In this document: positions 12,436-15,915 of the stretch, in pieces
Position numbering within the stretch: the first letter of the stretch is position 1
How the letters are laid out: each line of letters starts with the position of its first letter
Source: a virus
IMG/VR virus record: IMGVR_UViG_3300013006_000086
Location: 1 to 32,231 of that record
DNA length: 32,231 nucleotides
Strand: one strand, 5' to 3'
Program-made: the position numbers and the translations under genes
Notes under the pieces: generated by a model
The model's input: only the letters and a program-made list of their open reading frames with translations
What the model was told of the DNA's origin: nothing
Database searches by the model: none

Positions 12436-13044
12436 ATGCCAGAAACCGCCGCAAAGCCATCAAAACGATCTACAGCAGCCCCGAAGCCTAAAACTAAGGC
12501 CAAGGGTGCTGCAGCACAGAAAAACGTCTCCAAAGCCCCAAAGAAGACAGGCAAGTACACCCCAGAGCTGATAACAGAGATCTTCCGCCGCATCAGCTTG
12601 GGAGAGTCGTTACTGCAGATCTGCAGGGATGAGGGAATGCCAACGCGACAGGCTGTCTACGATTGGGTTCATGGCGACGAGACCCTCGCTTTACAATTCG
12701 CACGCGCACGGGAGGAGGGTTGTGACGCCATGGCGGAAGAGGCGCTGCACATTTCTAACACCCCGCACATTGGCAAGAAAAAGGTCTACAGCTCTGGCGC
12801 TGAGGATGATGAGGACAGCATGACGGTGACCGAGGAGGACATGCTTGGCCACCGCAAGCTCCAGATCGAGACGCGGCTCAAGCTGCTGGCCTGCTGGAAC
12901 CCTAAGAAGTATGGCACCAAAATCCAGATGGGCGGTGACCCCGGCAACCCGATCCAGATCGAGGCTCAGGTGGAGGCCGACAACTTCTTGGCCGCCATTA
13001 TGAAAAACGCGGAGCTCAAACGGCAAGTCGCGGCGAATGAATGA
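12436..13044 (+). CDS. terS: Terminase small subunit
   Basis: In this 202-aa protein, after a Lys/Ala/Pro-rich N-terminal arm (1-36), residues 40-85 hold a helix-turn-helix of the Sf6/P22-like small terminase type (YTPELITEIFRRISLGESLLQICRDEGMPTRQAVYDWVHG). Helices DALALQFARAREEG-like and HRKLQIETRLKLLACWNPKKYG follow, the latter a signature of this family. The protein would bind the packaging site on phage DNA as a ring and regulate the large subunit. Its end overlaps the large-subunit start by eight bases. Confidence 0.85.
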   Translation: MPETAAKPSKRSTAAPKPKTKAKGAAAQKNVSKAPKKTGKYTPELITEIFRRISLGESLLQICRDEGMPTRQAVYDWVHGDETLALQFARAREEGCDAMAEEALHISNTPHIGKKKVYSSGAEDDEDSMTVTEEDMLGHRKLQIETRLKLLACWNPKKYGTKIQMGGDPGNPIQIEAQVEADNFLAAIMKNAELKRQVAANE

Positions 13045-15352
13045 CATCGCGGCGATCGTCTCTGACCCAGAGGTCAAGAGGCATCTAGCTGCTGCCAGCC
13101 CCGAGTACCGTCTGGCGTGGGCTTGGCGCATGTCATGGTTCAGTACCCAGCATACCCATCAGATCCTGCCGCCGGGCGACTGGTGGTCTATCTGGCTGAT
13201 GCTGGCCGGACGTGGAGCCGGGAAGACCCGCACGGCAGCCGAGCAGATCGCTTGGTGGGCTTACGAGCAGCCCGGCACCCGCTGGCTGGTGGCCGCTCCC
13301 ACCTCGGCCGACGTCCGGGGAACCATTTTTGAGGGTGAATCCGGCCTGATGACCATCATCCCCAAGGCCTTGGTGGCTGACTACAACAAGACGGCGCACG
13401 AGCTGCGCCTGATTAACGGCAGCCTGATCAAAGGCATCCCAGCGTCGGAGCCTGAGCGCTTCCGGGGTCCACAATTCCACGGTGGATGGTGCGATGAGCT
13501 CGCGGCATGGGACTATATACAAGAGGCGTGGGACCAGATCCAGTTCGGCATGCGGCTCGGCAAGCGCACCCGGATGATCTGCACCACCACCCCACGACCG
13601 AAGGATCTGATCATTGAGCTGATGGGCCGGGAGGGTGACGACGTCGTGATGACCACCGCTTCAACCTACACCAATCTGGCCAACCTGAGCGAGAATTTCC
13701 GCAAACAGATCCTGAGCTACGAGGGCACGACTCTTGGGCGGCAGGAGATCTACGCCGAGATTATTGACCCGGAGGCAAGTGGGATCGTCAAAAGGGACAT
13801 GTTCAAGCTCTGGCCTGCCGGGCGGGCGTTCCCCAAGTTCGAGTACATCCTGCAGAGCTACGACGTGGCGACCTCAGAGAAGGCGCAGAACGACCCGACG
13901 GCCTGCATCACCTTCGGCGTTTTCAAGCCACAGGATTCCCCTATGAGCGTCATGGTCATTGACTGCTGGCAGGAGAGGATGATGTACCCCGACCTGCGCC
14001 CCAAGGTCATTGAGGAGTACGAGACCGTCTTCGGAGAGGGCAAGGACCGCAAGCGGGTTGACCTGCTGCTGATCGAGGACAAGAGCGCCGGGATCTCCCT
14101 GATCCAAGACCTCCAGCGGGCTCACCTGCCGGTTCGGGCGTACAACCCCGGCAGGGCCGACAAGCTCCAGCGCCTGAACATTGTGTCCAACATCATCGCC
14201 CGGGGCCGGGTGTGGATTCCTGAGTCCGACCACCGCAAGGGCTACGTCAAGGACTGGGCAGAGGGCTTCGTCAGCCAGATCTGCTCGTTCCCTGAGACGA
14301 CTCATGATGATTTGGTGGACGCATGTGTTGATAGCTTGACTCAGGTGCAAATGGCCAAGGGCGTGAAGCTGATCAAGGACGTGCAGGTGGGTGACATGGT
14401 GATGACCCCTGCCGGTCCGAGGCGAGTGACTGCTGTGCATGACAACGGGCTCAAGGAAGTTTGGAACGTCAACGGCCTGCTGGCCACGGCAGAGCACCAA
14501 GTGATGACCCAAGACGGCTGGATGCGTGTTGACTGCTTGAGTCAATCAATCCATAATGTATACCTTTACAAGGATGCATCATGGCTTTCAAATCAAGTGG
14601 CGCTGTTGTCGAGTCGGTGGTCTTCAACGGTCGCAGGTATAACCGCTACCCTGAGAGCGATAACCCGGCGCACCGCCGATACTTTGCAAGGGCTGGCCAC
14701 CGGCTTCACCGCGACGTGTGGAAGCACCACAACGGGCCAATCCCTGCGGGCATGCACGTCCACCACATTGACGGCAACACGGCCAACAACGACATCGGCA
14801 ACTTGGCCTGCGTCACAAGCAAGCAGCATTGGGACGAGCACCGGGCGCAGGCATCTGAGCGCAGCAGGCGGCCAGAGCAGCTTGAGCACCTCAGCCGGAT
14901 CCGCGTCAGCGCAGCCGAATGGCACCGATCAGACGAGGGACGGGCTTGGCACAGAGAACACGCAAAGACCTCTTTGGCAAAGACTTGGGGAAAGCCTAAG
15001 TCGTACTACCCAGCCCCTTACAAATGCATTTGGTGCGGTTTTGACGGTATTGCCAAGGTTCCTGAGCGAAAGAAGTTCTGCTCCCCCACTTGCCAAAACG
15101 CCGAATCAAAGCACCGCCTTGGTAAGACAAGTTACGAACACCCATACCATGCGTCATGTGTTCGACCTGACGGTGGAGGGTGAGCACTGCTACTACGCCA
15201 ACGGGATACTGGTCCACAACTGTACGCAGGCCCTGCGCTACCTGCGGGATGCCGGGTGGCTGGAGATCGACCCACCGCCCAACGAGGACTGGGACGAGGA
15301 CGACTTTGCCGACAGCGGCAAACAAAAACGAGTCAACCCCTATGCAGTCTGA
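13037..15352 (+). CDS. terL: Terminase large subunit interrupted by an intein
   Basis: The unspliced product is 771 aa, and removal of the intein leaves a 472-aa packaging motor. ATPase motifs: Walker A GRGAGKT (58-64), Walker B WCDE (Asp153, Glu154) and coupling motif CTTTPRP (182-188). RNase H-like nuclease motifs: SYD (Asp276), LLIED (Glu347, Asp348) and HDDLVDA (Asp424-Asp428). The intein begins at Cys430, directly after DDLVDA, and ends at His727-Asn728 before Cys729; the extein then resumes with CTQALRYLRDAGWLEI. The motor would cut concatemers and pump DNA through the portal, but the nuclease site is broken until splicing is complete. The acidic C-terminal tail (EDWDEDDFADSGK) is typical for contact with the portal. 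Confidence 0.93.
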   Translation: MNDIAAIVSDPEVKRHLAAASPEYRLAWAWRMSWFSTQHTHQILPPGDWWSIWLMLAGRGAGKTRTAAEQIAWWAYEQPGTRWLVAAPTSADVRGTIFEGESGLMTIIPKALVADYNKTAHELRLINGSLIKGIPASEPERFRGPQFHGGWCDELAAWDYIQEAWDQIQFGMRLGKRTRMICTTTPRPKDLIIELMGREGDDVVMTTASTYTNLANLSENFRKQILSYEGTTLGRQEIYAEIIDPEASGIVKRDMFKLWPAGRAFPKFEYILQSYDVATSEKAQNDPTACITFGVFKPQDSPMSVMVIDCWQERMMYPDLRPKVIEEYETVFGEGKDRKRVDLLLIEDKSAGISLIQDLQRAHLPVRAYNPGRADKLQRLNIVSNIIARGRVWIPESDHRKGYVKDWAEGFVSQICSFPETTHDDLVDACVDSLTQVQMAKGVKLIKDVQVGDMVMTPAGPRRVTAVHDNGLKEVWNVNGLLATAEHQVMTQDGWMRVDCLSQSIHNVYLYKDASWLSNQVALLSSRWSSTVAGITATLRAITRRTADTLQGLATGFTATCGSTTTGQSLRACTSTTLTATRPTTTSATWPASQASSIGTSTGRRHLSAAGGQSSLSTSAGSASAQPNGTDQTRDGLGTENTQRPLWQRLGESLSRTTQPLTNAFGAVLTVLPRFLSERSSAPPLAKTPNQSTALVRQVTNTHTMRHVFDLTVEGEHCYYANGILVHNCTQALRYLRDAGWLEIDPPPNEDWDEDDFADSGKQKRVNPYAV
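14529..14557 (+). promoter_or_regulatory. Promoter inside the intein, upstream of the HNH gene
   Basis: TTGACT (14529-14534) and CATAAT (14552-14557) stand exactly 17 bases apart, five of six matches to consensus in each box. TTGACT also forms an inverted repeat with AGTCAA (14540-14545). The start point would be near 14564, just before AAGGA (14570-14574) and the HNH ATG at 14581. This would allow transcription apart from the terminase message. Confidence 0.5.
14581..15183 (+). CDS. HNH homing endonuclease nested out of frame in the intein
   Basis: This is a 200-aa protein. The N-terminal half has a DNA-contact segment (FNGRRYNRYPES, HRLHRDVWKHHNGPIPAGMHV) leading into the HNH core VHHIDGNTANNDIGNLACVTSKQHWDEH (His61, His62, Asp64, Asn70, His83), as in phage HNH homing enzymes. 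The C-terminal part has a zinc ribbon (Cys149, Cys152, Cys167, Cys171). It would cut terL alleles that lack the intein and so copy the element into them. The frame differs from terL, and TAA at 14554 in its own frame rules out fusion to the splicing domain. AAGGA six bases before ATG 14581 gives it a ribosome site. Its last ten codons overlap splicing block F. Confidence 0.9.
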   Translation: MAFKSSGAVVESVVFNGRRYNRYPESDNPAHRRYFARAGHRLHRDVWKHHNGPIPAGMHVHHIDGNTANNDIGNLACVTSKQHWDEHRAQASERSRRPEQLEHLSRIRVSAAEWHRSDEGRAWHREHAKTSLAKTWGKPKSYYPAPYKCIWCGFDGIAKVPERKKFCSPTCQNAESKHRLGKTSYEHPYHASCVRPDGGG

Positions 15353-15398
15353 CCAAGCTGTGGTAGAGTTTGTTTGTTGCGGTCGTGCGCAGCAGTTG

Positions 15399-15465
15399 AA
15401 AGCCGTTACTCATGCACTGGCCTCCGTTTGGAGGGCACGACCCAGTGCAGTAGTAACGGCTTTTT
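15399..15465 (+). terminator. Large compound terminator after terL
   Basis: A perfect 12-bp outer stem (AAAGCCGTTACT 15399-15410 / AGTAACGGCTTT 15452-15463) encloses a second stem (GCACTGG 15414-15420 / CCAGTGC 15442-15448) and an apical CCTCC-GTTT-GGAGG. Five Ts follow (15461-15465). It would end transcripts from the terminase operon. Confidence 0.8.
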
Positions 15466-15479
15466 GCGTTCACGACGGC

Positions 15480-15680
15480 GACTCGGACACCATGCGGTAC
15501 GTCGGTGGTGGAGTCTTAAATAACCCTGTGACACGAGCAAGCCATAGCAGGGGCGGTGGGCGAATTCCTAGAGCCGGGCGGTTGAAACAAGTCTGGGATA
15601 ACGTAAGCGACGACTGGCTCCATACAGAGGATCGTCGAGGCGTAGAGCGAACTTTGGTCTTGACCACGGTAAGGCTACGC
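15480..15680 (+). ncRNA. Candidate structured RNA or structured 5' leader
   Basis: Within 200 bases several stems can form. GACTC (15480-15484) pairs with GAGTC (15511-15515) and encloses CACCA / TGGTG (15488-15492 / 15506-15510). CGACGA and TCGTCG pair around 15608-15636. GCGTAG (15640-15645) pairs with CTACGC (15675-15680) and encloses TGGTC-TT-GACCA. It starts just after a terminator and ends 30 bases before the next gene. It could be a separate small RNA, a leader of the virion message, or part of a packaging site. It matches no RNA family I know; the evidence is pairing only. Confidence 0.35.
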
Positions 15681-15711
15681 TTTGCTCAAACCTTCACCAC
15701 CAGAGGCCTAC

Positions 15712-15915
15712 ATGCAGATAACTAGAGAGTGGTTAGATCTAATCAGTGATGATCATGGGTTGACCAATGGCCAACAGAAACTGCTCAACATCTGGTGCCA
15801 AGCTGCCCCCTACGTTGACAAGCTGATCCCTGATCTGGTGGCGCATTTCCTTGAGCACTGCCGTGGGTACCGCGAGATGCCGCAGCACGTCAAAGACTTT
15901 AAGGGCTGGGTGTAG
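15712..15915 (+). CDS. Small hypothetical protein
   Basis: This 67-aa protein (MQITREWLDLISDDHGLTNGQQKLLNIWCQAAPYVDKLIPDLVAHFLEHCRGYREMPQHVKDFKGWV) is compact and helical, with two cysteines. The in-frame start at 15682 was rejected because AGAGG stands before ATG 15712. It is the first gene after the gene-free stretch. No family is recognised. Confidence 0.65.
   Translation: MQITREWLDLISDDHGLTNGQQKLLNIWCQAAPYVDKLIPDLVAHFLEHCRGYREMPQHVKDFKGWV

Follow-up and report, generated by a model that had tools for sequence, protein, structure and literature searches.

The DNA analysed here, referred to as the window, comprises positions 1 to 32,231 of IMG/VR record IMGVR_UViG_3300013006_000086, a fragment of an uncultivated phage. 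Between the end of its terminase gene (15352) and the ATG of the next small gene (15712) lie two structured RNAs, termed RNA-A and RNA-B, which together with all their parts are read from the plus strand. As the comparison of many copies shows, RNA-B (15478-15708) represents a previously undescribed family of structured phage RNA of c. 210-260 nucleotides (nt). The same comparison shows that a word in one of its loops is held equal to a word at its 3' end, although its letters can vary freely. We know of no described RNA family, and of no close counterpart, in which loop and tail are linked by identity and not by complementarity.

Compensatory changes and the fold of RNA-B

The fold was examined in an alignment of 62 diverse RNA-B copies, in which the structure consisting of P1, P2, P3, P4, P6, P7, P8 and P9 was tested. 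Paired cells amount to 83.3%, compared with 68.1% after shuffling and 33-49% when partners are slid. Two-sided changes occupy 308 cells vs 97 in shuffled alignments, and none of 500 shuffles was as high. These are the compensatory changes by which a preliminary description of the window had proposed to recognise a structured RNA at this place. A covariance model (R1) built from the 62 sequences, the window among them, scores 231 bits on the window, and G-U pairs are common in the helices, as RNA would show. That RNA-B is a real conserved structured RNA is therefore strongly supported by compensatory changes between sequences, and not by folding energy, which was rejected as a proof because it is uninformative (-73.7 kcal/mol, compared with -75.4 on average for shuffled sequences; z = 0.36). 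Given this value for RNA-B alone, the z of -3.1 obtained for a longer stretch is probably due to the upstream hairpin which it includes. A protein-coding function was likewise rejected, and the region does lack a credible gene, as previously stated: no protein frame is conserved, single-base insertions and deletions occur, and one copy (L067) carries an in-frame stop.

The fold consists of hairpins and two H-type pseudoknots (P3/P4 and P7/P8). P1 (15486-15515) is a hairpin with the near-invariant loop ATGCGGYACGTCRGTGGT, whose two inner pairs are paired in 100% of cells with two-sided changes, and whose outer pairs reach 74%. It corresponds to the segment GACTC..GGTGGAGTC noticed earlier, although covariation places the helix in the register 15486-15491/15510-15515 and not as GACTC/GAGTC with CACCA/TGGTG inside. 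P2 (CCCTG/CAGGG, 15524-15528/15548-15552) is 100% paired with two-sided changes, varying from CCCUG/CAGGG to CCCCG/CGGGG and others, G-U pairs included. Complement couplings are strongest in the pseudoknot at 15554-15598, formed by P3 (15554-15556/15574-15576) and P4 (15566-15569/15595-15598), which are 99.5% and 83.8% paired, respectively, with two-sided changes. P6 (CGACGA/TCGTCG, c. 15608-15613/15632-15637) is poorly aligned (38-52% of cells) and thus rests mainly on the reading of the sequences; it holds the conserved motif TGGCTCC (15615-15621). Further downstream (15640-15686), P7 (15640-15645/15675-15680) encloses P9 (15655-15659/15662-15666), with 88.8% and 64.8% of cells paired, respectively, and two-sided changes in both. 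P8 (15646-15648/15684-15686) forms a pseudoknot with P7 and is 95.7% paired, its changes being one-sided (G-U) only. A conserved CACC (15695-15698) follows. The preliminary description had correctly located P6, as well as P7/P9 in the form of GCGTAG/CTACGC with TGGTC/GACCA inside, while P2, the P3/P4 pseudoknot, the self-matching repeat and RNA-A were absent from it.

The window has no match in Rfam 15 at gathering, and at E up to 10 just two microRNA models appear, both matching the RNA-A hairpin. ARAGORN reports no tRNA or tmRNA. With respect to self-splicing introns (group I/II), no interrupted gene was found around the copies examined and there is no Rfam match. A literature search with little coverage of subscription papers returned no described phage RNA of this kind.

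The self-matching word

In the window the word CAGAGG occurs in the P6 loop, behind TGGCTCC (15625-15630), and again behind CACC, as the tail copy F (15701-15706). This arrangement is general: the 6-8 letters following TGGCTCC recur after CACC at the RNA-B 3' end, and the mean shared word is 7.6 letters long vs 4.0 with shuffled tails. In a scan of all pairs among 375 alignment columns, the six in-register loop/tail positions gave the strongest identity couplings of RNA-B (0.86-0.95 vs 0.32-0.50 expected). Among 125 distinct elements 35 different words occur, and the match is exact over six of six positions in 105 of them, as opposed to 6.4% with shuffled tails. Copies found later follow the same rule.

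The word changes while the identity is kept. Among 296 pairs of elements whose cores share at least 88% identity, changes on both sides affected 435 word positions, with the match retained at 433, and one-sided changes affected 48. Such joint changes are seen even in pairs that are 97-99% identical elsewhere; as the pairs share ancestry, they are not independent events. Read from the sequences, the repeat is also kept in lineages without TGGCTCC/CACC, as TTGCCTAAG (L156), TTGCCAGAG (L101), CCCATG (L085) and AGGGTAAG (L187). Where the same downstream genes occur without RNA-B, the tail word is mostly missing, so that the word belongs to the element; the comparison of L253/L302 with L083 is a partial exception. 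The word is rich in purines, with 94-100% purine at positions 4 and 5, and the 20 nt beyond the tail word are AT- and purine-rich. No complement of the word was found above chance in RNA-B or in nearby phage DNA.

RNA-A, a second structured RNA upstream

RNA-A (c. 15376-15465) is a short RNA consisting of a 5' hairpin, a terminator-type hairpin and a T run, and it is conserved ahead of RNA-B in most contexts. The strong terminator reported in the preliminary description exists as hairpin and T run, but constitutes the 3' half of this separate RNA. Its loop, GGTCGTGC (15381-15388), pairs with GCACGACC (15435-15442) in the terminator-type hairpin. A perfect complement of the loop, 6-8 nt long, lies within that hairpin in 43 of 44 copies; 26 different words are used, and the mean run is 7.1 vs 4.5 when shuffled. 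With its covarying loop-terminator pseudoknot, RNA-A is by itself a conserved element, either a small RNA or an attenuator.

Among the 44 copies, the top-scoring sigma-70-like pair mostly ends 6-7 nt ahead of the RNA-A hairpin, and promoter scores average 9.1 vs 5.3 in shuffles. The promoter of the window itself is weak, having only an extended -10 (TGgTAGAGT, with the -10-like element at 15364-15369), and a consensus scan of the window at RNA-A found neither promoter nor terminator. One lineage (L093, L101, L156) is devoid of RNA-A and carries the -10-like element TG(C/T)CATAAT directly before P1.

In sister phages, two unrelated conserved stretches occupy the place of RNA-B behind RNA-A. Element C (CCGTACTCCGCACG...) looks non-coding and is carried by L001, L003, L009 (from 3467), L043 (from 4593) and L060. 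Element D (CCTCAGAGCGGGTTAGC...), a highly conserved stretch of c. 280 nt, is found in L010, L019, L032, L041, L053 and L059 (from 2899). Neither has an Rfam match in the loci tested, and in neither is the loop-tail rule obvious by eye.

Distribution and genomic neighbourhood

At least 119 IMG/VR stretches fit a pattern derived from the most conserved RNA-B parts; a second, looser pattern also picked up a few chance matches. RNA-B is present once per contig in all 24 of 24 contigs. The exact pattern is unmatched in GTDB species genomes, and RNA-B has no match among PLSDB plasmids. The covariance model found nothing in 300 genomes of one order, where an empty result shows little, and in 274 genomes of one class its only match, of 18 bits and within a coding gene, is due to chance, in a search that likewise shows little. 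BLAST with three RNA-B versions returned no significant match in annotated phages. A weak BLAST match nevertheless led to MW202512.1, a complete circular genome. Here the covariance model recognises a diverged homologue (39.6 bits, E = 6e-12), at a place where the annotation gives small hypothetical proteins. It is the one annotated phage record in which a homologue was found. Variants resembling L239 were absent from the viral contigs searched.

The position of RNA-B varies. It is located downstream of TerL in the group of the window, upstream of TerS/TerL in others, or by replication/nin-like genes. In one setting it lies beside a gene for an FWxAWP-type protein, replication-like by eye alone, with RusA-, RuvC- and HNH-like genes near, also named by eye alone. 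A packaging role had been considered because of the neighbouring terminase. As RNA-B can also precede TerS, follow TerL or have no terminase gene beside it, it is not a packaging element tied to terminase. The suggested leader of the virion operon agrees with the window, in which the ATG at 15712 follows shortly after the end of RNA-B; it does not agree with those phages in which RNA-B precedes replication/nin-like genes.

A possible R-loop at the 3' end of RNA-B

Two identical segments whose complement is missing from the RNA call for a third strand. Since no complement of the word exceeds chance, the only partner that would match in every case and change together with the tail is the template DNA at F. 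We tentatively propose that the RNA-B loop pairs with the template DNA at its own 3' end as an R-loop, perhaps priming replication. Both copies of the word would be kept identical because both bind one strand, namely the template DNA at the 3' word. While RNA polymerase moves past, the loop would pair with the template at F and the transcript would be tethered on the DNA as an R-loop, while the RNA-A terminator would set how frequently polymerase reaches F. The purine-rich words and the AT- and purine-rich 20 nt that follow would favour an RNA:DNA hybrid; ribosome-binding sites bias the composition in a similar way. A less certain step is the use of this R-loop as a primer or opening step of phage DNA replication, and the same tether might alternatively control the transcription of the genes behind RNA-B. 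The further idea that a self-addressed R-loop starts phage replication, its address being free as long as loop equals tail and so providing each phage with a private origin code, is more doubtful.

Several observations weigh against an R-loop origin. GC skew does not mark RNA-B as an origin, and transcription, the R-loop and the origin role are all inferred from sequence. The base before the repeat differs between the two copies: almost all tails have A (CACC-A), and most loops have G (CTCC-G). About half of the tail words lie at Shine-Dalgarno distance (9-16 nt) from an ATG, which offers another source of the purine bias. In addition, the copies are related, and some joint changes may reflect shared ancestry or recombination tracts over both words. 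Finally, the MW202512 homologue has no clear repeat, so that the loop/tail code is not required throughout the family.

The closest parallel is RNA II of plasmid ColE1. Masukata and Tomizawa reportedly found in 1990 that a G-rich loop of RNA II interacts with C-rich template DNA. RNA II forms a persistent RNA-DNA hybrid which is processed by RNase H into the replication primer (PMC5043065). Like RNA II, RNA-B would be a promoter-driven structured RNA with a loop proposed to pair with the template near the 3' part. Being identical to the 3' word, exactly so in 105/125 elements, the loop word is complementary to the template strand of that word and would be able to pair with it. However, no sequence relation to RNA II was found (no Rfam match; no PLSDB plasmid match), the loop-to-tail distance is far shorter in RNA-B (c. 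75 nt), an antisense RNA I was not seen, and RNA-B is a phage and not a plasmid RNA, for which R-loop and origin are predictions made here. The R-loop origins of phage T4 start from a transcript held on DNA, as in the proposal, but depend on a promoter together with an unwinding element, whereas RNA-B is folded and conserved and carries a matching loop. The phage-linked RNAs GOLLD and ROOL are much larger than RNA-B. They are characterised as large, ornate and of unknown function (PMC12286853), and the window is without an Rfam match.

If the R-loop reading is true, RNA-B would represent an RNA-primed, reprogrammable phage origin; if it is false, the loop/tail rule still needs a partner. To a common group of uncultivated phages this adds an RNA family so far without a name, together with the second RNA that lies ahead of it.

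Alternative explanations

The main rival, possible and rated almost as high as the R-loop reading, is a transcription-control leader, in which RNA-A and RNA-B would provide a promoter, a short attenuated RNA and then, at the operon head, a cis-acting RNA enabling polymerase to pass later terminators. The order of promoter, RNA-A, terminator-type hairpin, RNA-B and genes on one strand is found in most contexts, and RNA-B heads late genes in one group while lying among replication/nin-like genes in another. Cis-acting leader RNAs such as HK022 put, the EAR antitermination RNAs and the lambda pR' 6S/tR' leader are possible parallels; the lambda pR' 6S RNA ending at tR', a short attenuated transcript at an operon head, resembles RNA-A. 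We know of no loop-tail identity code in put or EAR. The put RNA is small, with two hairpins, and RNA-B has no Rfam match. By itself, put RNA suppresses pausing and termination (PMC9378689). Such a leader leaves the identical loop and tail words unexplained, however, and RNA-B follows the RNA-A terminator instead of preceding it.

It is less likely that both words bind one partner in trans, be it an RNA of the host or the phage or a dimeric protein, with a specificity varying by phage, in the manner of a control element for translation or of an RNP, and with the tail perhaps serving as the ribosome-binding site of the next gene. The purine-rich tail word at 9-16 nt ahead of an ATG in about half of the copies would agree with this role, but many other copies have their ATG 25-60 nt off and another or no ribosome-binding site, yet keep the repeat. 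Furthermore, no complement was found above chance in nearby phage DNA, and 35 different words would require equally many partners.

The occurrence of the same RNA-B in unrelated genomic places, with a loop that equals adjacent sequence as in the guides of RNA-guided elements, brings to mind a mobile or RNA-guided element using the loop as a guide to its insertion site. This is improbable, since sites without RNA-B mostly lack the tail word, which is thus part of the element. Moreover, there is one copy per contig, the loci share no associated nuclease or recombinase, and the loop is identical to the downstream flank as read on the RNA strand, which does not agree with the bridge-RNA arrangement. 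Bridge RNA and omega RNA themselves were rejected as candidates, the word being absent from most element-free sites and no neighbouring enzyme gene being shared. An ordinary non-coding spacer with chance complementarity and no RNA function, with which the unremarkable single-sequence folding energy would agree, is refuted by covariation and conservation over diverse phages.

Other features of the window

Immediately 3' of RNA-B lies the small gene MQITREWLD.. (67 amino acids; 15712-15915, plus strand). Loci with related terminases number in the hundreds in IMG/VR. The TerL of the window (13037-15352) contains an intein (DA|CVDS ... HN|CTQAL), with Intein_splicing and Vint matches just under the cut-offs. 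An HNH_3 homing-endonuclease reading frame (E = 6e-17; 14581-15183) overlaps the middle of this intein in another frame. As both frames are open in L234 as well (770 and 200 amino acids), the endonuclease seems to be nested within the intein gene in a second frame. At the contig end (2-109), CCTGCT is present in 18 imperfect copies.
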